Both the position numbers and the translations under genes were made by a program. Shown here piece by piece: positions 10,551 through 37,047 of a DNA stretch of 64,000 nt; position 1 is the first letter of the stretch, and each line of letters opens with the position of its first letter. This stretch comes from Gordonia malaquae NBRC 108250 (GTDB lineage Bacteria; Actinomycetota; Actinomycetes; Mycobacteriales; Mycobacteriaceae). The stretch spans positions 1 to 64,000 of the forward strand of contig NZ_BAOP01000014.1 in the NCBI RefSeq assembly GCF_000344135.1, read 5' to 3'. The notes beneath the pieces were generated by a model. It did not search any database and was not told the origin of the DNA. It was given only the letters and a program-made list of their open reading frames with translations.

Positions 10551-11978
10551 TCAGTCGTGTGCGCTCATGACGTGCTTGACGCGGGTGTAGTCCTCGAGGC
10601 CGTATATCGAGAGGTCCTTGCCGTAGCCGGAGTGCTTGAAACCGCCGTGCGGCATCTCGGCGACCAGCGGGATGTGGCAGTTCACCCACACGCAACCGGA
10701 GTCGATCCGCGCCGTCGCACGTGTCGCGGTGCCGTGGCCGGTGGTCCAGACGCTGGCAGCCAGGGCGTAGTCGACATCGTTGGCGAGCGTGATCGCCTCG
10801 TCCTCGGTGCTGAAGCTCTGGACGGTGATGATCGGACCGAACGTCTCCTCCTGCACGATCGGGTCGTCCTGGCGGACACCGGTGATGACGGTCGGCTCCA
10901 CGTAGAAGCCCTTGTCGCCGATGCGTTTTCCACCGGTCGCGATCGTGGTGTGTGCACCGAGGGCGTCGATCTTGCCGAGCACCGCGGTGAAATGGTTGAC
11001 GTTGTTGAGGGCGCCGTAGAACGCGTCTTCGTCGTCGGGCGCTCCGGGACGGAGTTGCTCGGCCTGCGCGACGAGGGCTTCGACGAACGTGTCGTACACC
11101 GAATCGTGAACGATCGCGCGGGTGGCGGCCGTGCAGTCCTGTCCACCATTGAAGAACGCCGCCTGTGCGATTCCCTCTGCAGCCTTGGTGATGTCGGCGT
11201 CGCCGAACACCACCGCGGGAGCCTTGCCGCCGAGCTCGAGGTGAGCGCGCCGGACGTCCTTGGCCGCCGCGGTCGCCACGGCGATGCCCGCTCGCACCGA
11301 ACCGGTGATCGCGACGAGGCCGAGTGCAGGGTTCCCGACGAGGTCGGCTCCCGTGCCTCCGTTGCCGAGGACAACGTTGAACACGCCGTCGGGGAGGATG
11401 TCCTTGGTGAGTCGAGCGAGCACAAGGGTGCTTTCGGGTGTCGTGTCGCTCGGCTTGAGGACGATGGTGTTTCCTGCGGCGAGCGCGGGTGCGATCTTCC
11501 AGACGGCCATCATGAACGGGTAGTTCCACGGAGTGACCTGGCCGACCACACCGATCGGCTCGCGGCGGACGTACGAGGTGAAGCCCTCCATGTACTCGCC
11601 CGCGGCGCGGCCCTCGAGCAGACGAGCGGCGCCTGCGAAGAACCGGATCTGGTCGGCGCCGACCATCACTTCTTCCGACTTCACGAGCGTGGCGATCTGG
11701 CCGGTGTTGCGAACCTGTGCGGCGACTATCTCGTCGGCGTGCTCCTCGACGGCGTCGGCGAGTTTGAGGAGTGCGGCCTGACGGACACTCGGCGTGGTGC
11801 GTCCCCAGGTGACGGCGGCGCGCTCGGCGACGCGGACGGCGGCGGCGACCTCGTCGGCCGTCGACACCGGCGACACGGCCACAACGGTCTCGTCGGCCGG
11901 ATTGACGACATTGAGAGTCTCGGTTGATGTCGAGTCGACGAATGAGCCGTCTACGTAGTTCTGGAGCCGGATCGTCAT
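10551..11978 (-). CDS. patD: Gamma-aminobutyraldehyde dehydrogenase
   Basis: Aldehyde dehydrogenase of 475 residues expected to oxidise 4-aminobutanal to GABA. Catalytic Cys282 lies in GGQDCTAATR, the motif form of the PatD/YdcW type, and Glu249 in HLELGGKAP. It is the first gene of the operon, read divergently from the PucR regulator; the ATG at 11978 is used because the conserved N-terminal IRLQNYVDGSFV begins there. It supplies the step linking the amine oxidase to GabT. A betaine-aldehyde or general aldehyde specificity is the alternative. Confidence 0.9.
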   Translation of the reverse strand: MTIRLQNYVDGSFVDSTSTETLNVVNPADETVVAVSPVSTADEVAAAVRVAERAAVTWGRTTPSVRQAALLKLADAVEEHADEIVAAQVRNTGQIATLVKSEEVMVGADQIRFFAGAARLLEGRAAGEYMEGFTSYVRREPIGVVGQVTPWNYPFMMAVWKIAPALAAGNTIVLKPSDTTPESTLVLARLTKDILPDGVFNVVLGNGGTGADLVGNPALGLVAITGSVRAGIAVATAAAKDVRRAHLELGGKAPAVVFGDADITKAAEGIAQAAFFNGGQDCTAATRAIVHDSVYDTFVEALVAQAEQLRPGAPDDEDAFYGALNNVNHFTAVLGKIDALGAHTTIATGGKRIGDKGFYVEPTVITGVRQDDPIVQEETFGPIITVQSFSTEDEAITLANDVDYALAASVWTTGHGTATRATARIDSGCVWVNCHIPLVAEMPHGGFKHSGYGKDLSIYGLEDYTRVKHVMSAHD

Positions 11979-22935: not shown

Positions 22936-25023
<2,088 letters not shown>

Positions 25024-25026
25024 CGG

Positions 25027-27033
25027 TCAGCTCGACGCCAGGCGCCGCAGAGCCGCGACAACGGGCTTCGGATCGCGGGTGCGCCAGAACGGCGGCAGGC
25101 CGGCCATCAGATAGCCGCCGTATCGAGCTGTCGCGAGACGGGAGTCGAGGACGGCGACGACACCCTTGTCCGACGTGGATCGCAGCAGCCGGCCCGCGCC
25201 CTGGGCGAGCAGAAGCGCCGCGTGGTTGGCCGAGACGGTGAGGAAGCCGTTTCCGCCGCGCGCGTCGACGTCGCGCTGCCGCGCCGACAGCAGTGGATCG
25301 TCGGGGCGGGGGAACGGGATCCGGTCGATCATCACCAGTCGCAGTGACGAACCGGGGACGTCGACGCCCTGCCAGAGCGACAGCGTGCCGAACAGACACG
25401 TCCGTTCGTCGTCGGCGAACTTCTTGATGAGCGTCGACGTCGCGTCGTCGCCCTGGCACAGGATCGGGAAGTCCATTCGATCGCGGAGCTTCTCGGTGGC
25501 CTCCTTGGCTGCTCGCATCGAGGAGAACAAGCCGAGTGTGCGTCCACCTGCGGCTTCCATCAGGCCGACCATCTCGTCGAGGGTCTTCGGGGAGAGCCCG
25601 TCGCGTCCGGGCGGGGGGAGGTGCCCGGCCACGTACAGGATCGCGGCCTTGGGGTAGTCGAACGGCGAACCCGCATCCATTCCACGCCAACCCGCGCCCT
25701 CCACAGCGGTGCTGTCCGGTGAGCCGCCCTGAGGGGGAAGTCCCCACGTACGAGCGAGTGCGTCGAAGTTGCCGCCGATCGTCAGCGTGGCCGACGTCAG
25801 TATCACCGTCGAATCGGTGAACAGCGACGTCCGCAGGAGCCCGGCGACCGACAGCGGCGCGATCCGGAGCACGTGACGGGTGTTGTTCCGGAAGTCGTCG
25901 ACCGACTTCCACACCACGTCGTATCGCTTGGTGATGTCCTTCTCGCCGAACATCGTGAGGACACGGACCACGGCGTCGTGCATGGAGTCGGCGGACGACA
26001 TCGCCATCTGGCGGGCGGCGGCCGCTTCCGGGTCGGCGCCGGCCGATCCCTGCTTGGCGGGTCCGATGCTGCTCCGAGCGTTCCAGAGGCGGTCCCGCAA
26101 CGATGCGAGTATCTCGCCGGCGCCGTTCGGAAGCCGCACCCATTCGCCCGCGGGGGAGTCCTCGAGCAGGATGCCGAGCTGTTCGCCCGCACCGACGAGG
26201 GCATCGGCGGTCTCGTCGTCGATGAGCTTCCCGCAGCGTCGCGCGACCTGTGCGACTCCTGCGGCAGAGATCTCCTCGGTGGTGACCGAGGTGATGCGGT
26301 CGACGAGTTCGTGCGCTTCGTCGATCACCACCACCTTGTGCTCGGGGAGGATCGTCGCCGGGCTCATGGCGTCGATCGCCAACATCGCGTGGTTGGTGAC
26401 GATGACGTCCGACGCGCCGGCTTTGCGGCGGGCGATCTCGGCGAAGCAGTCTTCGCTGTACGGGCAGTTGTTGGCGCCGAGGCACTCTCGAGAGGAGACG
26501 CTGACCTGTCGCCACGACTGATCGCTCACGCCCTGTGGGAGATCGTCGCGGTCACCGGTCTCGGTGTCGGAGACCCATTCGCGCAGGCGGGTCACCTCGC
26601 GCCCGGTCCGGGACAGCTCGAACGCGTCGAACAACTCCGTGTCGGGTTCCTCCGCGACACCCGAATGGATCTTGTTCAGGCAGAGGTAGTTCGCCCGGCC
26701 CTTGAGGATCGCGAAGGTGGGCTCGCGGCCGATGGGCTTCGCCAACGCCTTCGACAACCGGGGGAGGTCCCGTTCGGTGAGCTGGCGCTGCAGGGCGATC
26801 GTCGCGGTGGACACCACAACGGTGTCGTTGCTCTCGACCGCGTGCCGGATCGACGGCACGAGGTAGGCGAGTGATTTACCGGTACCGGTTCCGGCCTGGA
26901 CGGCGAGGTGCACGTCGTCGTCGATGGCAGCGGCGACGGCAGTGGCCATCGCCAGCTGCCCCTCGCGCCGACTGCCTCCGAGTTCGGTGACCGCGTGGTC
27001 GAGGAGTTCGGGAACGGCGGGGATGTCGGTCAC
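25027..27033 (-). CDS. dinG: DinG-family ATP-dependent DNA helicase
   Basis: Superfamily 2 iron-sulfur helicase, 668 residues, 5'-3' unwinding. Walker A is AVQAGTGTGKS (44-54), the DEAH box VVIDEAHE, and four cysteines of the Fe-S cluster appear as YLCLN, RECLG, NNCPY and EDCFA. The C-terminal motor motifs GTLSLWQGVD and AQGAGRLLRS are intact. It overlaps pncA by ATGA. Corresponds to Rv1329c. Likely acts on R-loops, D-loops or G4 structures (family knowledge). Confidence 0.93.
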   Translation of the reverse strand: MTDIPAVPELLDHAVTELGGSRREGQLAMATAVAAAIDDDVHLAVQAGTGTGKSLAYLVPSIRHAVESNDTVVVSTATIALQRQLTERDLPRLSKALAKPIGREPTFAILKGRANYLCLNKIHSGVAEEPDTELFDAFELSRTGREVTRLREWVSDTETGDRDDLPQGVSDQSWRQVSVSSRECLGANNCPYSEDCFAEIARRKAGASDVIVTNHAMLAIDAMSPATILPEHKVVVIDEAHELVDRITSVTTEEISAAGVAQVARRCGKLIDDETADALVGAGEQLGILLEDSPAGEWVRLPNGAGEILASLRDRLWNARSSIGPAKQGSAGADPEAAAARQMAMSSADSMHDAVVRVLTMFGEKDITKRYDVVWKSVDDFRNNTRHVLRIAPLSVAGLLRTSLFTDSTVILTSATLTIGGNFDALARTWGLPPQGGSPDSTAVEGAGWRGMDAGSPFDYPKAAILYVAGHLPPPGRDGLSPKTLDEMVGLMEAAGGRTLGLFSSMRAAKEATEKLRDRMDFPILCQGDDATSTLIKKFADDERTCLFGTLSLWQGVDVPGSSLRLVMIDRIPFPRPDDPLLSARQRDVDARGGNGFLTVSANHAALLLAQGAGRLLRSTSDKGVVAVLDSRLATARYGGYLMAGLPPFWRTRDPKPVVAALRRLASS

Positions 27034-27635
27034 TGGGCGTCGGGCGTCGAACTGTCGGCGGGAGCACCGGTGTACAACAGGTCGCCGGAGAGCTCGACGC
27101 CGAGCTCACGCATCTGCGTGAACGCGGACTCGGTCGTGGCCTCGGCGACGGCTGCGGTGTACGGGAGCAGCACTCGCGTGCGCAGTCCCGCTTTCACTGC
27201 GTCGACGGCCGTCGCCCGGACACAGTGATCGGTCGCGATGCCGACCACGTCGACCTCGGTGACGCCGTGGTCGGCGAGCCATTCCGCGAGCGACGTGCCG
27301 TCGGCGTCGGAGCCTTCGAAACCCGAGTATGCGGCGCTGTACGCGCCCTTGTCGAAGACCGCCGCGAACGGTTCGGTGTCGAGCGTCGGGTGGAATCCGA
27401 CGCCGTCGGTGCGGGCCCGGCAATGCGGAGGCCAGGAGTCGACGTAGTCGGGGTCGTCGGAGAAGTGGTCACCCGGATCGATGTGGTAGTCGCGGGTGGC
27501 GACGACGGTGCTGTAGTCGTCGGTGATCGTGTTGATCGACCCGGCGACGGCCGCTCCGCCGCGAACCGCGAGTGCGCCGCCCTCGCAGAAGTCGTTCTGC
27601 ACGTCGACGACGATCAATGCGCGGTTGTCGGTCAT
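27030..27635 (-). CDS. pncA: Nicotinamidase/pyrazinamidase
   Basis: Isochorismatase-fold amidase of 201 residues hydrolysing nicotinamide to nicotinate (and pyrazinamide to pyrazinoate). Catalytic Asp11 (VVDVQNDF), Lys96 (FDKGAY) and Cys138 (ATDHCVRAT), and metal ligands Asp49, His51, His57 and His71, coincide with M. tuberculosis PncA numbering except for the first. It lies between pncB and dinG, sharing one base with the pncB stop, so nicotinamide salvage to NaMN is encoded by one transcript. In M. tuberculosis pncA is at a different locus. Confidence 0.95.
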   Translation of the reverse strand: MTDNRALIVVDVQNDFCEGGALAVRGGAAVAGSINTITDDYSTVVATRDYHIDPGDHFSDDPDYVDSWPPHCRARTDGVGFHPTLDTEPFAAVFDKGAYSAAYSGFEGSDADGTSLAEWLADHGVTEVDVVGIATDHCVRATAVDAVKAGLRTRVLLPYTAAVAEATTESAFTQMRELGVELSGDLLYTGAPADSSTPDAQ

Positions 27636-28957
27636 CACTTCTCCGGTCGGGTCACGTATCGGGTGGGGACCGCAGGGTCGCCGTGGCTCAGGCCGAGGCC
27701 CTCCCATGGAAGCGACACGAGGCCACGAGCGAGGTGATCCCGCGCGTCGACCAGCGTGGGCAGACCCTCGACGACACGACCTTCGCGCACCAGCGGGATC
27801 TGCAGGTCCCGAACGTCCAGATTACCCGCGTCGACGAGATCGGCGGCGGCCACGTCCGTGCCGCCGGTCACGACGATCTCCTCGACGATGGTCCCGGTGT
27901 CGCGGGCTGCACGGATTGCGCGCTTGGCGCCGCCGTGGCTCTCCTTGTGACTGGCTCGCTTGGCGACCGGGACGCCGTCGACCTCGACGAGCTTGTAGAC
28001 CATGCCCGCAGTCGGTGCGCCGCTGCCGGTGACGAGCGAAGTCCCGACGCCGTAGGTGTCGACGGGTTCCGCGCGCAGCGACGCGATCGCGTACTCGTCG
28101 AGATCACCGGAGACGACGATCTTCGTGTCGGGTGCGCCGAGCCCGTCCAACTGCGCTCGGACCTGACGTGCGAGGACACCGAGATCGCCGGAGTCGATGC
28201 GGACGCCGCCCAACTCGGGGCCGGCGACGGCGACGGCGTTCGAGACACCCGTCGTGATGTCGTAAGTGTCGACGAGCAGGGTGGTCCCGACGCCGAGCGC
28301 GTCGATCTGCGCAGCGAATGCGGCCTTCTCGTCAGTGCCCGCGTGGGTGGAGAACAAGAGGGTGAAAGCGTGCGCGGCGGTGCCTGCACTGGGGACGCCG
28401 TAGGTGCGTGCGGCCTCGAGGTTCGACGTCGCGGTGACGCCCGCGATGTACGCGGCTCGCGCCGATGAGACCGCCGACCGTTCGTGGGTGCGTCGACCGC
28501 CCATCTCGATGATCGGTCGACCGGCGGCCGCGCTCACCATTCGAGCGGCGGCCGAGGCGATGGCGCTGTCGTGATTGAGGATCGACAGGATCATCGTCTC
28601 CAGGATCACGGCGTCTGCGAAGCCGCCGCGCACCGTCATGATCGGCGACCCGGGGAAGTAGAGCTCACCTTCCCGGTAGCCGTCGATCTCGCCGGTGAAG
28701 CGGTAGTCGGCGAGCCAGGCGAGAGTCTGCTCGTCGACGATGCCGTCGAGCGCGGCGATCTCGTCGTCACCGAAGCGGAAGTCGGCGAGCGCGTCGAGCA
28801 CCCGCCCGGTGCCCGCGACGACGCCGTAGCGACGTCCGTCGGGCAGTCGGCGCGCGAATACCTCGAACACGCAGGGACGATCCGCTGTCCCGGCGCGCAG
28901 GGCGGCCGAGATCATGGTCAGTTCGTACTGGTCGGTGAGAAGCGCTGTAGCGGTCAC
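27635..28957 (-). CDS. pncB: Nicotinate phosphoribosyltransferase
   Basis: Converts nicotinate, PRPP and ATP to nicotinate mononucleotide in NAD salvage. 440 residues with the N-terminal [11 protein letters not shown], the phosphoribosyl-binding [16 protein letters not shown] and [10 protein letters not shown] motifs. The frame is open back to 29092 and an ATG lies at 28978, but that ATG would overlap the clpS start; I take the GTG at 28957, which has TAGGGT exactly 7 bases before it. Equivalent to Rv1330c and divergent from clpS. Confidence 0.93.
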
Positions 28958-28963
28958 GTTCGC

Positions 28964-28970
28964 TACCCTA
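28964..28970. promoter_or_regulatory. Overlapping divergent leaderless promoters of pncB and clpS
   Basis: Seven bases, TACCCTA, hold both -10 elements: TACCCT on the plus strand (28964-28969) lies 7 bases before the clpS ATG at 28977, and TAGGGT on the minus strand (28970-28965) lies 7 bases before the pncB GTG at 28957. The two hexamers share five base pairs, so polymerase can probably occupy only one direction at a time. Confidence 0.65.
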
Positions 28971-28976
28971 TTACTC

Positions 28977-29279
28977 ATGGTGCGCGATGACGTGACGCCG
29001 GGCACGAGCACCGGTACGGCGGTAGCCGAACCCGAGGTCGTGACCGACAGGCCGTGGGTCACGGTGGTCTGGGACGATCCCGTCAATCTCATGAACTATG
29101 TCGCTTACGTCTTCCAGAAGCTGTTCGGGTACTCCGAGGTCAAGGCGCGTGAGCTGATGATGCAGGTGCACAACGAAGGCAAGGCCGTCGTGTCGTCGGG
29201 CGATCGCACCAAGGTCGAGGGTGACGTGCAGAAACTCCAGGCCGCAGGCCTGTGGGCGACCATGCAGCACGACAAATGA
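28977..29279 (+). CDS. clpS: ATP-dependent Clp protease adaptor ClpS
   Basis: 100-residue N-degron adaptor that delivers N-end-rule substrates to ClpC/ClpP. Conserved [16 protein letters not shown], the binding-pocket region VFQKLFGYS, and [12 protein letters not shown] are present. The start is set by the -10 element 7 bases upstream. It opens the clpS-DUF2017-P1 peptidase-rhomboid operon, as in Rv1331-Rv1333. Confidence 0.94.
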
Positions 29280-29318
29280 CGGCTTGCGGCACGAGGAGCT
29301 CGGTATGAGGACTGCGGT

Positions 29319-29930
29319 ATGAGAACTTGGCGGCGCACCGGATCCGGTGCCGACGTGCGGATCTGCTCGAACCTCGAGAGCTACGAGTGCCAACTCCTCG
29401 CATCGATGGTCGAGTCGATCGCGGAGATACTCACCGAGCGAGGCGACTCCGCGCCTCGCGACGAACTGTCGGCCCTCACCGGCATCACAACCGGACACAC
29501 CACAGCGCCGCAAGACGTCACCCTCGGGCGCCTCCTGCCCGATTTTCACCGGCCGGATCAGGAGCCGGAGCTCACGGCCGCGTCGTTGGCCTCCGATCTC
29601 AACGGCGGTCTCCGCAGCGTCAACGAACCGAAGATCATCGACGCGAAACTCGAGGCGGCGGCCACCGTCCTCGACACGCTGCCGCCGGGCGGCGGCGACA
29701 TCCGGCTCACCGAGGGCGAAGCCGACCGGTGGCTCGCCGCACTCACCGACGTGCGACTGGCGCTCGGCGCGATGCTCGGGATCGACGAACAGCCGATGCG
29801 CCTGGCGCCGGATCATCCCCAGGCGGCGCACCGCGACGTGTACGACTGGCTGTCCGTCGTCCAAGGACTGCTCGTCGAGGCACTGATGGCCGATGAGTGG
29901 ACCGAGTCGGACTGGGAGACCGGCGAATGA
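29319..29930 (+). CDS. DUF2017 family protein
   Basis: 203-residue cytosolic protein of the DUF2017 family that accompanies clpS in mycobacteria (Rv1332 type). The family block ICSNLESYECQLLASMVESI near the N-terminus and the C-terminal DVYDWLSVVQGLLVEAL are recognisable. Function unknown; co-conservation with clpS suggests a role in protein turnover (inference). Its stop overlaps the next ATG (ATGA). GAGGAGC stands upstream of the start. Confidence 0.82.
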   Translation: MRTWRRTGSGADVRICSNLESYECQLLASMVESIAEILTERGDSAPRDELSALTGITTGHTTAPQDVTLGRLLPDFHRPDQEPELTAASLASDLNGGLRSVNEPKIIDAKLEAAATVLDTLPPGGGDIRLTEGEADRWLAALTDVRLALGAMLGIDEQPMRLAPDHPQAAHRDVYDWLSVVQGLLVEALMADEWTESDWETGE

Positions 29931-31048
29931 TCGCTGCGACCGGTGGCACGATCTCGGACGTCGCAGGCGTCACGGTGGGACATGCGCACCGGATCGACGA
30001 CGAGGTGGTCGTCGCGACCCTGACCGAACCCGGAGTCGGATGGGCGACGGGCACCACCGTCGTGCGTGTCCCCGACGGTTCGACGACCGCGGTCGACGTG
30101 CGCGGAGGTGGCCCCGGAACTCGGGAGACGGACCTGCTGGAGCCGGGCAACAGCGTCCGCGGCGCACACGCGATCGTTCTCACCGGCGGCAGCGCCTACG
30201 GACTCGCAGCGGCCGACGGCGTGATGCTCGGACTGGAGGCCGACGGCGTGGGTCTGCCGATGGACCTGCAGGGCCACGTGGTTCCGATCGTTCCGGGAGC
30301 GGTGATCTTCGATCTGCCGGTCGGACGATGGGACAACAGACCCGACGCCGACTTCGGACGCCGAGCGCTCGCCGCCGCGACCCGCGACGTCGAGGTCGGT
30401 TCCGTCGGTGCGGGTGCGGGAGCACGAGCCGGTGCACTCAAGGGTGGAGTCGGGACGGCGTCGTTGACGCTGGCCGACGGACCAGCCCGCGGACTGACGG
30501 TCGGCGCTCTTGTGGTCGCGAATCCCGTCGGCCAGGTGATCGATCCGGCAACCGGCCTCCCGTGGGGCTCGGACGACCTCGCTTGGCACGGGCTCACGAC
30601 GCCCACGGCGGGGGAGATCACCGGACTTCGAGAACTGTCTGCGAAAGGAACAGTCTTGAACACCACGATCGGTGTGGTCGCGACGGACGCCGCGTTGCCG
30701 GTCGCGGCGCTGCGACGTCTCGCGATGTCCGGACACGACGGTCTCGCTCGCGCGGTCCGGCCGGCCCACTCGCCGTTGGACGGTGACACCCTCTTCGCCG
30801 TCGCGACCGGAGGGACCCCGGTGGACGCCGATGCCGCGGTGCCCATCCCGCCGGGCATGGAACCCGACACCGCCGTCGTCGCCGCGTTGAGCGAGGCGTC
30901 CGCGGTCGTCGTTCAACGCGCCATCGTCTCGGCCGTCGTCAACGCGACGTCGGTCGCGGGGATCCCCGCCTATCGCGACGCCGTGCCGTCCGCGTTCGTG
31001 GCGCCGGGCCGCGACTCCGGTTCATCGAACGGAGTCGAGACGGAATGA
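29927..31048 (+). CDS. P1-family (S58/NylC-like) peptidase
   Basis: Self-processing N-terminal nucleophile hydrolase of the DmpA/NylC family, 373 residues, matching Rv1333. The expected autocleavage site is Asn245-Thr246 in GTVLNTTIGV, which would free the nucleophilic Thr; the oxyanion region VLTGGSAYGLAAADGV is present near 84-99. Substrate unknown (family members act on D-amino peptides, beta-peptides or nylon oligomers). ATGA overlap with the DUF2017 gene and with the rhomboid gene downstream. Confidence 0.9.
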   Translation: MIAATGGTISDVAGVTVGHAHRIDDEVVVATLTEPGVGWATGTTVVRVPDGSTTAVDVRGGGPGTRETDLLEPGNSVRGAHAIVLTGGSAYGLAAADGVMLGLEADGVGLPMDLQGHVVPIVPGAVIFDLPVGRWDNRPDADFGRRALAAATRDVEVGSVGAGAGARAGALKGGVGTASLTLADGPARGLTVGALVVANPVGQVIDPATGLPWGSDDLAWHGLTTPTAGEITGLRELSAKGTVLNTTIGVVATDAALPVAALRRLAMSGHDGLARAVRPAHSPLDGDTLFAVATGGTPVDADAAVPIPPGMEPDTAVVAALSEASAVVVQRAIVSAVVNATSVAGIPAYRDAVPSAFVAPGRDSGSSNGVETE

Positions 31049-31647
31049 TCCCCGACACGACGAGGCCAGCGAAGCCGGACGCCCCCTGGGGCCGGTGGTT
31101 GTCGGCGGTGATCGCCGTCGCCGTGATGGCCGCGGTGCTGTTCGCGATCGAACTGATCGACACCGTGATGGACGGCCGGCTCGATGCGCACGGCATCGTT
31201 CCACGCAGTTGGTCGGGCCTGCTTGGCATTCTCTGGGCGCCGTTCCTGCACGCCGACTTCGCACATCTTGTCGGCAATCTCCTGCCGGGCGTTGTGCTCG
31301 GGTTCTTCGTGGTGCTGTCCGGACACGCGGTCGCCGTGACCGCCGTCATCTGGGTGACGTCCGGGCTGGGAGTGTGGCTGATCTCGCCGTCCGACTCGGT
31401 GACGATCGGCGCGTCGGGAATCGTCTTCGGTTGGTTGACGTTCCTGATCGTGCGCGGTGCGTTCAACCGCGACGTGTGGCAGGTGCTCGGCGGGATCGTT
31501 GTGCTGTTCATCTACGGCGGCATTCTGTGGGGAGCGTTGCCGGGCACCGCGGGCGTCTCCTGGCAGGGGCATCTTTTCGGAGCGATCGGCGGCGTGCTCG
31601 CGGCGTCCGTGACCTCCGTCTCCGCTGGTCACCGTGATAGAATCTGA
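31045..31647 (+). CDS. Rhomboid-family intramembrane serine protease
   Basis: 200-residue, six-segment membrane protease of the Rv1337 type. The catalytic Ser124 lies in the GASG motif (TIGASGIVFGW) and His176 in SWQGHLFG; the HLVGNLLPG segment supplies the oxyanion-side Asn. The substrate is unknown. Its 3' end contains the leaderless promoter of murL. The M. tuberculosis genes between the P1 peptidase and rhomboid (mec, cysO, cysM) are absent here: the two genes overlap directly. Confidence 0.92.
   Translation: MIPDTTRPAKPDAPWGRWLSAVIAVAVMAAVLFAIELIDTVMDGRLDAHGIVPRSWSGLLGILWAPFLHADFAHLVGNLLPGVVLGFFVVLSGHAVAVTAVIWVTSGLGVWLISPSDSVTIGASGIVFGWLTFLIVRGAFNRDVWQVLGGIVVLFIYGGILWGALPGTAGVSWQGHLFGAIGGVLAASVTSVSAGHRDRI
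31638..31643 (+). promoter_or_regulatory. Leaderless -10 element of murL
   Basis: TAGAAT inside the last codons of the rhomboid gene, 7 bases before the ATG at 31651. It gives murL-murD2 a promoter independent of the clpS operon. Confidence 0.6.
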
Positions 31648-31650
31648 TTT

Positions 31651-33006
31651 ATGGGTGTGACAACTGAATTCAATCCGGCTGACTATCGGAGGCTTCTGAT
31701 CAGGGAATGCCAGATTGAAGGACGAGTTGTTTCTGCGCGATATTCGCTCATCGGATCGAATGGTGCCGACGACGTCGAATTCGCCGAGACTTTCGATTTC
31801 GGCGGCATCGATTCGACTGTGGCCTTCGATCCTCGTCTCCTCCGTCTGCTGGCACTGACTGCCGGAGTCAGTTACTACAAGGCGTCGGCACCGGAGACGG
31901 TGTCGATCGACTTCCCGATCACCGAGTCGGAGGCGGCGTATGTGGCCGCGGTGATCCGCGGCGGTCTCGGCGAGTTCGCGTTCGAGAATCAGTTGCCCGA
32001 CGCGCTCACCCCGATGCTCGACTACCGGCTCGGCGGCGACGTTGAGATCGCAGCCGCGGAGTCGGCGTGGACCCTCGACGCGGAGCCGCTCGTCGCCGTC
32101 GGCGGCGGCAAAGACTCCGTCGTGTCGATCGAGGCGCTCAAGGCCGCTGGCCGGACGCCGACGCTGTTCAGCGTGAACAGGTATCAGCCGATCGAGGACT
32201 GCATCGCGGTGAGCGGACTGTCGTCGGTGCACGTGCTGCGCAAGATAGACCGCACGCTCATCGAACTCAACGGCGCGGGCGCCTACAACGGGCATATCCC
32301 GGTGACGGCGATCAACAGTGTTATCGCGCTGATCGCCGCAGATGTGGCGGGCCTGGGGTCAGTGGTGATGTCGAACGAGCAGTCGGCCGACATCGAGAAC
32401 CTCAGCTGGCACGGTTTCGAGATCAATCACCAGTGGTCCAAGAGCCGCGAGTACGAGAACCTGCTTCGGTCAATGCTGGCCGATTACGGGATGGATCCGG
32501 CTCGGTACTTCTCCCTGCTGCGAGGCCTGCCCGAATCCGACATCGCCGACCTGTTCCGTGGCTGCACCGCGTATTTCGATGTGTTCGTCAGCTGTAACAG
32601 GTCGTTCGCGTTGGACGAGAGCCGCCGTCGTTCGCGGTGGTGCGGCGAATGCCCCAAGTGCCTGTTCGTGTTCGTCCTGTTGGCGCCGCGGATCGGGCGC
32701 GACCGACTGTGCGCGATCTTCGCGCAGAACGTCCTCGACAATGACCAGAACACAGAGCTGTTCCTGGAACTGGCCGGCCTCACTGCTCACAAGCCGTTCG
32801 AGTGCGTCGGCGACTACTCGGAGGTCGCGGAGGCGTTCGTCGATCTGATGGACGATTCCGAATGGTCGGACGACGCGGTGGTGCGGCGGATGGCCGACGA
32901 TCGGACACGACTGATGGCGAGCGCGGCCAACCGGGTGCCGGTCGCCGAGTCGGAGAACATTCCCGCCCCGTACGCAGGTGTGCTCGGTGCTCTCGTATCG
33001 CGCTGA
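31651..33006 (+). CDS. murL: UDP-MurNAc-L-Ala-L-Glu epimerase (MurL)
   Basis: 451 residues resembling MurL, which inverts the terminal L-Glu of UDP-MurNAc-L-Ala-L-Glu to D-Glu in an ATP-dependent reaction. A PP-loop-like GGGKDS (151-156), SNEQSA (241-246), the YFDVFVSCNRSF segment and a Cys cluster CGECPKC (331-337) are visible. The next gene is a MurD homologue, the known partner of MurL, which makes the assignment convincing. It occupies the place of murI (Rv1338). The first 120 bases are visibly more AT-rich than the neighbours, a hint of acquisition. Recognition is from memory of the family. Confidence 0.87.
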   Translation: MGVTTEFNPADYRRLLIRECQIEGRVVSARYSLIGSNGADDVEFAETFDFGGIDSTVAFDPRLLRLLALTAGVSYYKASAPETVSIDFPITESEAAYVAAVIRGGLGEFAFENQLPDALTPMLDYRLGGDVEIAAAESAWTLDAEPLVAVGGGKDSVVSIEALKAAGRTPTLFSVNRYQPIEDCIAVSGLSSVHVLRKIDRTLIELNGAGAYNGHIPVTAINSVIALIAADVAGLGSVVMSNEQSADIENLSWHGFEINHQWSKSREYENLLRSMLADYGMDPARYFSLLRGLPESDIADLFRGCTAYFDVFVSCNRSFALDESRRRSRWCGECPKCLFVFVLLAPRIGRDRLCAIFAQNVLDNDQNTELFLELAGLTAHKPFECVGDYSEVAEAFVDLMDDSEWSDDAVVRRMADDRTRLMASAANRVPVAESENIPAPYAGVLGALVSR

Positions 33007-34321
33007 CCTGCAGGGCCGCCGCGTCGGCGTGTGGGGGCTGCGCGTGGAGGGGCTGGCCGTGGTCAGAGCGGCCGTGGAGTCGGGTGCCACCAGCGTTGTC
33101 GGGGTCGACTCGTCGACGGTGACGCGTCCGGCCGAGCTGCCCGCCGACATCGTGGAGTTCCATGCGGGTGACGACGCGCTGTCACGGTTCTTCGACTGCG
33201 ACGTCGTGTTCCTCAGTCCGGGCATCCCATGGCGTCACGACGTGGCCGTCGCGCTTCGTGAGTCGGCTGGCGTGACGGTGTCGTCGGCCACCGACCTCTT
33301 CCTGTCCGTGGCGGGAGCGCAGACCGTAGGCGTCACGGGGACCAAGGGCAAGAGCACGACGTCGTCGTTCCTCGCGCACCTGCTGACGGTTGTCGGCGCG
33401 CGAGCGACTGTCGCGGGCAACATCGGGATTCCGCTCGTGCAATTGGAGCCTGCCGACGACGAGATCGTGGTGGCAGAGATGTCGAGCCAGCAGTGCGCGG
33501 TCCTGCGGCATTCGCCCCAGGTCGCCGTCGTCACGAATCTGGGGGAGGACCACCTCGACTGGCATGGCGACGTCGACGAGTACGTGCGCGCGAAGTCTCG
33601 AATCTTCGAGTCAGGCAGTGACGTCCTGATCTGTGAATCGCGTGCTCTGGCCCGGTTGCGCGAGCTCAGTGCCACTGCCGTCGACGTGCCCGACGTCGTG
33701 CTCAGTGAGGACGCGGCGGCTGATCGTTGGCCGACGGTCGGAATCGATGCGAATTCGCCGATGTCGCACCCGCACAATCGGGTGAACGGTCTGCTGGCGT
33801 TGCTGGCCGCGGAGTGGGTGTTGGGCCGGTCGATCGGCGATGACGAACTGCTCGCCGCGATGAACACGTTCGGTGCGTTGCCGCACCGTCTCGAAGTGGT
33901 TCGCCAGACGGCCGGTCGGACGTGGGTGGACGACACTCTCGCCACCACTGCCGACAGTGTCGTCGCCGCGATGCGCGCGTTGCGATCCGCAGGTCCGACG
34001 GCGGTGATCGTCGGGGGGCTCGACCGCGGTATCGACTACACGGCAGTCGACGACTATTTGGCGGAGCACCCCGGCGACGTACATCTCGTACAGATCCCGT
34101 CCAACGGACATCGGATCGGTGAGCGGTATGCAGCGGAGCACCACGACTTCGTGTCGCGTGCGGACAGCCTCGCCGATGCTGTCGCCGTCGCTGCGCGGCT
34201 GCCGGTGTCGAGCGTTGTGTTGTCGCCTGCGGCACCGAGTTACGACATGTATCGGAGCTACAAGGCGAAGGCCGCAGACTTCGTCGAGTGCATCGACGCT
34301 CTGGGCGCTGTCATCGAGTGA
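32978..34321 (+). CDS. murD2: UDP-MurNAc-L-Ala--L-glutamate ligase (MurD2)
   Basis: Mur ligase of 447 residues. The ATP loop is GVTGTKGKSTTSS (118-130), with the central Mur motif EMSSQQ and the His/Asn region TNLGEDHLDWHG, and the C-terminal domain PHRLEVVRQTAGRTWVDDTLATT. Paired with MurL it should add L-Glu, not D-Glu, to UDP-MurNAc-L-Ala. The GTG start lies 29 bases inside murL. A canonical murD would be expected in the dcw cluster elsewhere; without MurL next door this would be called murD. Confidence 0.85.
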   Translation: MCSVLSYRADLQGRRVGVWGLRVEGLAVVRAAVESGATSVVGVDSSTVTRPAELPADIVEFHAGDDALSRFFDCDVVFLSPGIPWRHDVAVALRESAGVTVSSATDLFLSVAGAQTVGVTGTKGKSTTSSFLAHLLTVVGARATVAGNIGIPLVQLEPADDEIVVAEMSSQQCAVLRHSPQVAVVTNLGEDHLDWHGDVDEYVRAKSRIFESGSDVLICESRALARLRELSATAVDVPDVVLSEDAAADRWPTVGIDANSPMSHPHNRVNGLLALLAAEWVLGRSIGDDELLAAMNTFGALPHRLEVVRQTAGRTWVDDTLATTADSVVAAMRALRSAGPTAVIVGGLDRGIDYTAVDDYLAEHPGDVHLVQIPSNGHRIGERYAAEHHDFVSRADSLADAVAVAARLPVSSVVLSPAAPSYDMYRSYKAKAADFVECIDALGAVIE

Positions 34322-35492
34322 CGAGCGCCTTCGCGTAGATTGTCCGCTCGCCGTACGACGTTTGGGTCTTGCCCATGTACTTGTAGCCGAGGGTCTCGAA
34401 CAGGCGTCGGCTCGGGACGTTGTCGGGGTGGATTGTCGCCCGGATCTCGCGCTTGCGGCGGAGGCGGGCTTCCTGTTCCAGGCGGAACGCAAGACTGTGG
34501 CTGAGGCCGTTCCGCTTGTGAGCGGGGTGCGTGATGATCAGTTTGAAGTTGACGGAAGCGAGCATCTCGGCCGGGTCGTCCGTCGTGTAGCGGCGGATGC
34601 TCTCGTGCCCAGTCTGGCCGTCGTAGAGGATCGCGATCGACACGAGCTCGCCGTCTTTTCGCCAGCCGACCACCTTGTGCAAGGTGTGACCCGATTCGGT
34701 GCCGCCGCCGTCAAGGCAGAGGTGGAGCATGTCGTCGTCGTTCGTGCGGAGCCACGGTGACGATCCGAGTTCCTGCAGGGTCGCGCGCTGAAGTTCGCGA
34801 ACTTCGTCGAGATCGTCGACGGTGAGCTCGACGCGGACGTAGCCTGCCTGCTCGGCAGTCGCCTCGGCGTAGGTGACGTAGCCGGGCGGGGTCGGCTTGC
34901 CGTTGGTGACGATGTGATCCACCCATTCTGTGACGAGGTCTCGGATATTCTTGAACGACTCTGGATTCTTCAGAATTGTCGCACGCAGGATCGCCGGATG
35001 ACCGATGGCGCGGAAGAATCGGTTTCGAAAGAGATCGTCGGTGAGCGAGAAGTCGAGGGCCCCCCGCTGGTGCAGCAGGTGCAGCGTCTCGAAGAAGGTG
35101 AGATAGTTACTCATCGCGAAACGGTCCGTCGCGGTGATCTCCTCCTCGAGGAGGATCTTCTTCCAGAGCGCGCCGATCTCGGGATCGGATGTGAAGCTCG
35201 TTTGAAGGTCGCGAATGAACTCGGCTTGCGCGATTTGCTTGGTCAGGCGGACCTCGTAGAGGACCATGAGTGCGCCGACCGTACCGCCGACTGCGATGAA
35301 CACGCCGAAACCTGCGGGCCAGATGAAGTTGACGCCGATGAGAAGCGCAAGGAACAGGATGGCTACGACGATGAGGAACGTCTGCTGCCGACGCCGTTTG
35401 CGGTGTTTCACGCCGTTCACGATAGCCCAGTCGTTGACGAGATTCGCGGCGGTTGGCAAGGGCGTCGCAGTTGGTCGTTCATCGAGTGGCAT
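34311..35492 (-). CDS. Membrane-anchored GNAT acetyltransferase with DUF4760-like region
   Basis: 393 residues in three parts: two transmembrane helices (about 38-58 and 62-82) after a basic KHRKRRR stretch, a helical DUF4760-like domain (about 85-200, EFIRDLQTSF...LTEWV), and a C-terminal GNAT domain (about 215-390) ending in the typical RLFETLGYKYMG. The acetyl-CoA loop region is HPAHKRNGLSHSLAFRL. The substrate is unknown. It converges on murD2 with an 11-bp overlap and has no counterpart at this site in M. tuberculosis; base composition is lower in GC than the flanks. Possibly a peptidoglycan or defence modifier, but nothing shows it. Confidence 0.7.
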   Translation of the reverse strand: MPLDERPTATPLPTAANLVNDWAIVNGVKHRKRRRQQTFLIVVAILFLALLIGVNFIWPAGFGVFIAVGGTVGALMVLYEVRLTKQIAQAEFIRDLQTSFTSDPEIGALWKKILLEEEITATDRFAMSNYLTFFETLHLLHQRGALDFSLTDDLFRNRFFRAIGHPAILRATILKNPESFKNIRDLVTEWVDHIVTNGKPTPPGYVTYAEATAEQAGYVRVELTVDDLDEVRELQRATLQELGSSPWLRTNDDDMLHLCLDGGGTESGHTLHKVVGWRKDGELVSIAILYDGQTGHESIRRYTTDDPAEMLASVNFKLIITHPAHKRNGLSHSLAFRLEQEARLRRKREIRATIHPDNVPSRRLFETLGYKYMGKTQTSYGERTIYAKALVTR

Positions 35493-35683
35493 GCTGCCCT
35501 AACGCCTTGTTGCGCAGTGGATTTCATACTTCTTTAGGTCTGAATCGCGAACGCTGCAGGTGGAGCGAGTGTTGTATCTCGATGTTGTGTGACCCGTCCC
35601 ATAAATGGACGGCGGTGAATTCGTCAGTCACGCGGCGGCCGTTCGACTCTTGATTCGCGACAGTGCGTGGCAGAGTGGTGCCC

Positions 35684-36457
35684 ATGCGATTGACGGTGCT
35701 CGGGTGCTCAGGGAGTGTGAACGGCCCCGGTGCTGCCTGTTCGGGATACCTCGTGCAGGCCGACGGCCACCCGCCCGTGTTGATCGATTGTGGACACGGC
35801 GTCTTCGGCGAACTTCTCCAGCACGCGAACCCCAACCACGTGGCTGTCCTGCTGAGTCATCTGCACGCGGACCACTGCATGGACCTCCCGGCGATGCTCG
35901 TGTGGCGTCGATGGGCGCCCGAGAGTGCGACCGAGCGCTCCTTCCTGTTCGGGCCGGAGGGGACCGCACTGCGAATCGGGGCCGGCTCCAGCGAGTACCC
36001 CGGCGAGATCGACGACATCTCCGACACCTACGACGTCCGGGAGTGGCAGGACCGAGTGGCGGTCGACGTGCACGGCCTCCACATCGAGCCGTTCAAGGTC
36101 AATCACCCTCCCGCCACATTCGGTCTGCGGATCACCGGGCCCGACGGTGAGGTCCTCGCGTACAGCGGCGACACCGGCGTCTGCGACGAGGTGGTCGAAC
36201 TGGCGCGCGACGCCGACCTCTTCCTCTGTGAGGCGTCGTGGACACACGACCCCGACGTCCGACCGGAGGGGCTGCACTTGTCGGGCGTGGAAGCCGGGCA
36301 GGTCGCGGCGGACGCCGCCGTCCGGTCCCTCGCGCTTACTCACGTGGTCCCGTGGACCGACTCCGACGCCATCCTCGACGAGGCGTCCGGCGCGTACGCC
36401 GGCCCCCTCCAACTCGTTCACCAAGGTCAGATCATCGAGGTCCGCAAACCCGTCTGA
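35684..36457 (+). CDS. Metallo-beta-lactamase-fold phosphodiesterase (Rv1339-like)
   Basis: 257 residues. The metal-binding signature SHLHADHCMD (58-67) and the later SGDTGVCDE and GLHLSGVEAGQ regions belong to the metallo-beta-lactamase family that includes Rv1339, reported as a cyclic-nucleotide phosphodiesterase lowering cAMP. Role here by synteny. I chose the ATG at 35684; CAGAGT, a weak form of the -10 hexamer, lies exactly 7 bases upstream. Followed by a 344-bp gap rich in repeats. Confidence 0.87.
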   Translation: MRLTVLGCSGSVNGPGAACSGYLVQADGHPPVLIDCGHGVFGELLQHANPNHVAVLLSHLHADHCMDLPAMLVWRRWAPESATERSFLFGPEGTALRIGAGSSEYPGEIDDISDTYDVREWQDRVAVDVHGLHIEPFKVNHPPATFGLRITGPDGEVLAYSGDTGVCDEVVELARDADLFLCEASWTHDPDVRPEGLHLSGVEAGQVAADAAVRSLALTHVVPWTDSDAILDEASGAYAGPLQLVHQGQIIEVRKPV

Positions 36458-36472
36458 CGCGTGCAGCCCCTT

Positions 36473-36530
36473 CCTGCTCCTTGAGCCGTCGAGGAGCGCA
36501 GCGACGAGGCGTGTCGAAACGTCGCGAGCC
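36473..36530 (+). repeat. REP-like intergenic element
   Basis: Begins CCTGCTCCTTGAGC, 12 of 14 bases equal to the unit at 22818, and continues GTCGAGGAGCGCAGC and GAGGCGTGTCGAAAC, a pattern I associate with dispersed elements of Gordonia/Rhodococcus-like genomes (memory, unverified). Confidence 0.5.
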
Positions 36531-36636
36531 GTTCGGACGTCGACGCAGATGCATGGGCGTCGCTGTATCGAACGGAGTCCCGTCCGTTCGATCGACCGTC
36601 ACCTTCACTGCGATGCGTCCGGTGGACCTGGTCCGC

Positions 36637-36702
36637 TCCCGCGGCACTACTCGTTCCCGCGCTTCGTCCCGCCGAAGCGCGGGAACGGAAACTGCCGCGG
36701 GA
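36637..36702. repeat. Two-tier palindrome (nested hairpins)
   Basis: Outer stem TCCCGCGGCA (36637-36646) with TGCCGCGGGA (36693-36702); inner stem GTTCCCGCGCTTCG (36653-36666) with CGAAGCGCGGGAAC (36673-36686) and a 6-base loop. The two stems are separated by 6 bases on each side, so the element is symmetrical as a whole; all 24 pairs are exact. No T run follows. Confidence 0.75.
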
Positions 36703-36788
36703 ACGCGCGGCGCTGTCGTCGCACGCCAGCGCGTGATCGAGGAATCGCTCAGACACGGCGGCCGCGCATGGACCGCATCAATCGGCGA

Positions 36789-36794
36789 TAACCT
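36789..36794 (+). promoter_or_regulatory. Leaderless -10 element of the 81-residue gene
   Basis: TAACCT followed by 7 bases and ATG at 36802; this is the main support for that gene. Confidence 0.5.
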
Positions 36795-36801
36795 GCACTA
36801 C

Positions 36802-37047
36802 ATGGACGAGCTTTCATCCACCGTGGGTCCCTTCGGCATGACCCGCGACGAGCTGATCGAGTTGGTTCGTGAGGCGATGGATCCTGAATCGGCCGCCGAC
36901 GACCATGCCGCGGACGCGATCATGCAACGCATCTGCGACGCGGTGTCCGACCCGCAGATCAGCGATTACATGTGGTGGAGTCCGACATCGTTGACGCCTG
37001 AGCTGATCGTCGACAAAGCTCTGTCGTACCGGCCGCTCGCCTTCTGA
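36802..37047 (+). CDS. Small hypothetical protein (81 aa)
   Basis: I do not recognise this protein. It is acidic at the N-terminus ([18 protein letters not shown]...) with a helical-looking middle and an aromatic patch [13 protein letters not shown], ending SYRPLAF. A larger frame continues upstream, but a -10 element TAACCT exactly 7 bases before the ATG at 36802 marks this as the real start. It lies 28 bases before the rph start; synteny with mycobacteria gives no name. No signal peptide or membrane segment. Its composition (balanced acidic and hydrophobic residues, no arginine runs) argues that it is coding. Confidence 0.6.

Follow-up and report, generated by a model that had tools for sequence, protein, structure and literature searches.

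We have analysed a stretch of 64,000 nucleotides (the window) at the start of contig NZ_BAOP01000014.1 of Gordonia malaquae NBRC 108250, in which a murL–murD2 gene pair lies where the glutamate racemase gene, murI, is expected. Very likely, murI has been replaced in place by an acquired segment carrying murL, murD2 and a third gene, for a GNAT/DUF4760 protein, after this lineage split from its sister genome (here G208), and the swap has been caught midway, since the classical murD of the dcw cluster is still present and intact. In the classical MurI–MurD route, found in other Gordonia, the racemase first makes free D-glutamate, an inversion that costs no ATP; the MurD2–MurL pair, unlike it, would probably attach L-glutamate first and invert it afterwards. 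The enzyme system itself is known and the pair is ordinary for its kind; what is new is the recent in-place replacement caught midway.

The murL gene (31651–33006, plus strand) encodes a MurL-type epimerase of 451 residues and overlaps by 29 bases the murD2 gene (32978–34321, plus strand), which encodes a MurD2-type Mur ligase of 447 residues. To the left is a rhomboid protease gene (31045–31647, plus strand; PF01694) and to the right the gene of an Rv1339-like metallo-beta-lactamase-fold protein (35663–36457, plus strand; PF12706), 98% identical to its G208 counterpart. The original prediction had the open reading frames (ORFs), the frames, the motifs GGGKDS (151–156) and CGECPKC (331–337) and both flanking genes right but missed an additional gene on the minus strand (34311–35492), between murD2 and the Rv1339-like gene, which encodes a putative GNAT acetyltransferase with DUF4760 (PF00583/PF08445/PF15956). 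It had also placed the pair in the slot of murI, the gene Rv1338 of Mycobacterium tuberculosis (PMC3605390), and this is borne out across the genus. murI occupies the slot in 56 of 59 Gordonia genomes and murL–murD2 in the other three, the only ones with murL: the window's own genome (G000), Gordonia hirsuta (G057; cassette on NZ_BANT01000044.1) and G170. In 55 of the 56, murI is at most 600 bp from the Rv1339-like gene and in G207 it is 1.5 kb away, where about 1.5 kb of extra DNA separates murI (L166 8501–9244) from the Rv1339-like gene (10765–11523); the rhomboid match is missing in 5 of the 56.

Because the sister genome keeps murI in the slot, the swap can be mapped. A tree of 8 proteins (2,206 columns, 59 genomes) places G208 as sister to the window's genome with a support of 1.0. 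In blastn comparison its locus (L181) matches the window at 23180–31614 with 90.8% identity and at 35580–36462 with 92.1%, with nothing between, and the junction alignments give a replaced segment of 3,965 bp (31615–35579) for the 844 bp of G208 that hold murI (L181 8439–9282). The swap begins close to the 3' end of the rhomboid gene, whose last ~33 bases are on the cassette side (the G208 alignment ends at 31614), and ends a few bases past the murI stop. None of the 13 nearest murI-bearing relatives in a clade of 16 species has the segment, in keeping with the acquisition that had been proposed from the window alone. Two changes are enough to account for the slot states on the species tree, against six returns of murI if the cassette were ancestral in this clade, and murI fits vertical descent: the genes of G208 and G212 are as similar to each other as their flanks and group together in the murI tree (0.846). 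Thus, the window carries the derived state. The original wording, that "this lineage" made the swap, should be restricted to the window's branch after the G208 split, together with a separate branch of G057 and G170.

In trees of MurL and MurD2, built from 22 earlier loci and 16 new ones, the window falls beside G057 and G170, with G535 next; the class carriers G232, G291, G347, G499 and G514 were left out, and L231 (probably read on the wrong strand, 22% identity), present in alignment A5, was dropped from A6. Among the three Gordonia cassettes identity is only 59–60% for MurL and about 55% for MurD2. Just before the left junction, the final six informative sites match G212 and not G208, which hints at a donor within the same species group, although these sites are few and were chosen because they touch the junction. 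In the history that we favour, murI would have been removed from its slot and the same slot filled by the horizontally acquired segment; since the carriers share one slot, homologous recombination through the flanking genes is the suggested mechanism.

The window's genome (4.47 Mb, a draft of 115 contigs) is rated 100% complete with a contamination of 0.24%. The original prediction had proposed searching it for murI and for dat, the D-amino-acid transaminase gene, and comparing the locus in close relatives; both searches came out in favour of a displaced murI, as did the comparison with G208. The glutamate racemase model TIGR00067 has no match in the whole genome at E ≤ 0.001, and a murI elsewhere in it was rejected on this ground. 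In six Gordonia genomes searched, this one included, nothing exceeds the cut-off of the transaminase model TIGR01121; dat was rejected for the window's genome on a best match of 36.8 bits against a cut-off of 277.45. A lone PF01177 gene on the same contig was considered as MurI and rejected, as NCBIfam yields no match for it at E ≤ 0.001; its neighbours read, by inspection rather than family search, as an allantoin-type permease and a ureidoglycine aminohydrolase. Across the genus TIGR00067 matches 57 of the 59 genomes, the exceptions being G000 and G. hirsuta.

The first protein of the pair matches the NCBIfam MurL model NF041275 over residues 62–419 (E 3.1e-103). It resembles MurL over most of its length, the model being matched by all 37 aligned sequences (E ≤ 1), and it is paired with a MurD-like ligase, as are 74 of 79 related loci (taken from the best 80 of 293). 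The second protein scores 267.6 bits against the murD model TIGR01087, over its cut-off of 211.95; a chance resemblance of the pair to MurL and MurD was rejected on the E values. The MurD2–MurL pathway is described from Xanthomonas oryzae (XOO_1320/XOO_1319), Micromonospora and Salinispora in passages of PMC8788868 that cite Feng et al. 2017. The window shares with this pathway an adjacent pair whose proteins are both related over most of their length, the MurD2-type residues at four positions described below and a genome in which murI has no match and dat none over the cut-off. It differs in that a recent replacement has put the pair into the murI slot, in that the classical dcw murD is kept and in having Asp for Glu at position 182.

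Residue positions in MurD2 were assigned from an alignment with structures of E. coli MurD. At positions 182, 319, 348, 414 and 416 (E. coli numbering) the window's MurD2 has D, L, R, P and Y, of which four are MurD2-type: besides Leu at 319, R350 stands for K348 (R358 in Xanthomonas) and P420 and Y422 for A414 and L416. In MurL-linked MurD2 sequences (n = 77, omitting L116 and L113, which duplicate L137 and L138) Ile or Leu is found at 319 in 76, Arg at 348 in 76 and Pro at 414 in all 77, whereas classical Gordonia MurD has K, K and A at these positions in 33 of 33. A further 16 MurD2 sequences from the class survey (see below) all have Leu and Arg, two of them with Ala at 414 (G535, G460). 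The sections of PMC8788868 on these enzymes report that the chirality of Xanthomonas MurD2 is determined by R358 and E197 (positions 348 and 182) and that E. coli MurD K319T accepts L-glutamate.

MurL is described in a passage of PMC8788868 as an ATP-driven epimerase without known conserved domains. Our predicted model of the window's MurL resembles a QueC/QatC-like ATP enzyme, and its likeness to the anti-phage protein QatC covers residues 11–416, seemingly reaching past the QueC core (326 residues align, while the core in QatC has about 233). This is a likeness of predicted fold: the Pfam QueC model PF06508 has no match in the window's MurL, which is not filed as a member, and matches only 1 of the 37 aligned MurL sequences (E 2.3e-4), and a sequence search among solved structures found no relative, with one unrelated match at E 0.37. 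The QueC family has an SGGxDS loop and a C-x8-CxxCxxC zinc motif, as given in a part of PMC13329287. MurL has GGGKDS and C315-x15-C331xxC334xxC337, differing in the first loop residue and in the cysteine spacing (x15 for x8), and the four cysteines are invariant in 37 of 37 sequences. QatC, Cap9 and QueC, as QueC-family PP-loop enzymes, differ from MurL in substrate and outcome. The model would fit an ATP activation of a peptide carboxylate. More speculatively, and with little confidence, MurL might be a cell-wall branch of the QueC/QatC ATP enzymes, and QatC, whose reaction is stated in part of PMC13279940 to be an open question, might carry out a MurL-like peptide-carboxylate activation rather than deazaguanylation, because the likeness between the two seems to exceed the QueC core. 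Searches of open-licence PubMed Central (PMC) papers listed among their matches none on MurL together with QueC and none on Gordonia with MurL or with glutamate racemase.

A survey of the family found murL in 2 of 161 genomes, G000 and G057; the remaining 159 all match TIGR00067 (E ≤ 0.001), with 81 exceeding the cut-off. A survey of 394 genomes of the class found murL in 23 (E ≤ 1e-20) and no murI in 17 (E ≤ 0.001), the two coinciding in 13 genomes (Fisher p 3.4e-15); the genomes lacking both genes, G222, G230, G329 and G338, are drafts of 250 to 970 contigs. The pair lies near slot genes (rph, ITPase or NAPRT) in seven actinobacterial loci outside Gordonia: Microbacterium L038, L040 and L041, a Microbacteriaceae metagenome-assembled genome (MAG; L034), Canibacter L051, a Propionibacteriaceae MAG (L082) and G237 (L255). 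No slot genes were found in the Nocardioides and other actinobacterial stretches examined, some of which are short. G535, from a different genus within the same family, carries a murL–murD2 pair (C1:3771292–3772398, L247) with 52% and 48% identity to the window's proteins; no slot genes were found within the 20 kb examined there, and that genome has no murI match. The genera listed in the sections of PMC8788868 consulted do not include Gordonia, Nocardioides, Microbacterium or Canibacter. In three Patescibacteria-type MAGs MurL and MurD2 form one ORF of 815–833 residues, a natural fusion (L107:5935–8433, L108:5821–8265, L111:5968–8415).

Several observations weigh against our reading. The NF041275 score of the window's MurL, 345.6 bits, is below the Xanthomonadales equivalog cut-off of 700, and the protein is not filed as that equivalog; the Foldseek superposition of its model on QatC is poor overall (template-modelling score 0.39–0.42, root-mean-square deviation 10–12 Å). 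murL can also coexist with murI: of the 23 carriers in the class, five have a strong murI (E < 1e-39; G269, G309, G347, G522, G537) and five have weak matches (G398, G232, G277, G291, G400), and G170 carries a divergent murI elsewhere (160 bits) besides its murL–murD2. This second-type murI (L165:9272–10111) lies beside a choloylglycine-hydrolase-type gene, and a second murI of about 154 bits is also found in G213, G192 and G169.

A further point of this kind is D191 of the window's MurD2, an Asp where the Xanthomonas enzyme has E197; in that enzyme the mutation E197D altered the stereospecificity, according to the mutant data in PMC8788868. Since this chirality residue is Asp here, strict use of L-glutamate can be inferred only. 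The Gordonia MurD2 might instead be relaxed and take both D- and L-glutamate, a possibility that we regard as unlikely but worth keeping in view. Asp is found at 182 in all three Gordonia MurD2 and in 10 of the 16 class-survey loci, as a relaxed enzyme could explain; it also occurs in 3 of 14 other actinobacterial MurD2 and 2 of 6 from the Candidate Phyla Radiation, and because Glu is not universal among MurD2 we have not taken it as family-defining. Against relaxation, the residues at 319, 348, 414 and 416 are all MurD2-type, and without murI there is no evident D-glutamate to use.

The original prediction went too far in one respect, that classical MurD had been replaced as well. The search for a second murD that it had proposed found a classical one in the dcw cluster of the window's genome (C112:79552–81003, 340 bits), with the classical D, K, K, A and L at E. 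coli positions 182, 319, 348, 414 and 416. This gene has not decayed since the split from G208: of the changes that G212 allows to be polarised, 8 are nonsynonymous and 40 synonymous, against 9 and 35 in G208, and nothing points to relaxed selection. Of the 8 dcw genes compared it is the least conserved, with the highest number of nonsynonymous changes, equally in both lineages. Because the gene shows no decay, the old MurD may still be used, which counts against our reading; either a very recent swap or a dcw murD still in use fits the substitution data.

Both routes might accordingly run side by side, with D-glutamate either taken up or supplied by a moonlighting enzyme (DapF, for instance), the dcw MurD using it and murL–murD2 being an addition or conditional. 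We think this improbable, more so than a relaxed MurD2. It would explain why the dcw MurD is intact and constrained, and G170 has murI alongside murL–murD2; in Chlamydia DapF is capable of glutamate racemase activity (passage in PMC5885031), and D-glutamate in the medium can feed a transport mutant of a D-glutamate auxotroph (section of PMC12502697). On the other side stand the negative murI and dat searches of the window's genome, where the only PF01177 gene found belongs to no NCBIfam family and adjoins the apparent allantoin genes, and the fact that G. hirsuta lives without murI and without classical murD. In its dcw cluster mraY is followed by ftsW without a murD in between, so that full replacement, the old murD included, is seen in this species. 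At E ≤ 1e-50 all of the 59 Gordonia genomes but G057 and G170 have a MurD match in addition to any MurD2, and in G170 the old murD is probably gone as well, as judged by this cut-off and not by its dcw cluster. We retain the reading of an in-place replacement caught midway, in which the activities of the enzymes and the order of the steps are inferred and the old MurD of the window's lineage would be left without a substrate.

It is very doubtful that the cassette was ancestral in the 16-species clade and that murI came back repeatedly to the same slot. The MurL proteins of the three Gordonia group in a single clade, in which the window branches outside G057 and G170, a pattern that ancestral presence would give equally, but murI would have to have returned six times independently, and its tree and divergence fit vertical descent. 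A cassette misplaced by assembly or contamination, for which the draft state of 115 contigs could be cited, is scarcely credible, as the 130-kb contig around the window is colinear with G208 on either side (the ground on which a contaminant contig was rejected), contamination is low and the same arrangement is found in two other Gordonia, in one of them inside a 3.6-Mb contig.

The segment also differs from its surroundings in composition, with a GC content of 63.6% between flanks of 68.6% and 67.0%. The AT-richer 5' end described originally is real (GC 0.602 at 31500–31999, against 0.63–0.72 in 500-base windows from 28000 to 31249), though the far end is equally AT-rich (0.60–0.61 at 34750–35499). 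A leaderless promoter belonging to the cassette had been proposed too, and the −10-like hexamer TAGAAT (31638–31643, plus strand) is a candidate for it. In each of the three Gordonia carriers a TANNNT box precedes the murL ATG by exactly 7 nt (TAGAAT in the window, TATAAT in G057, TACGCT in G170), and TAGAAT is likewise 7 nt before the murL start in L033, whose start codon is assumed; in L034 a TAAAAT box stands 9 nt ahead of an ATG, and no box was picked out in L035. Because this spacing is constant in the window, G057, G170 and L033, the murL transcript is probably leaderless and started from within the cassette. A relative of the GNAT/DUF4760 gene also neighbours murL–murD2 in G. hirsuta; one in L033 matches GNAT models only, and none was found beside the pair in G170. 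In G208 and G212 murI seems, by eye, to start at a CTG (L181 8486 in G208) after an AGGGAGG ribosome-binding-like site. G208 also has about 2.1 kb extra between the Rv1339-like gene and rph (L181 10164–12593, against 36462–36819 in the window).

Replacing the D-glutamate route amounts to two genes gained and two lost. Four gene states are found within Gordonia: murI with murD (56 genomes); murL–murD2 with the old murD (the window); murL–murD2 alone (G. hirsuta); and, in G170, murL–murD2 with an extra murI and no classical murD found at E ≤ 1e-50. Since all four exist within one genus, the sequence of steps by which an essential pathway is exchanged can be tested directly there; a recent laboratory study, in the part of PMC12502697 that states its aim, set out to evolve alternative D-glutamate routes. 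The QatC-like predicted fold of MurL offers a chemical lead for the ATP-driven epimerase and for QatC, and inhibitors directed at MurI would be expected to miss some Gordonia.
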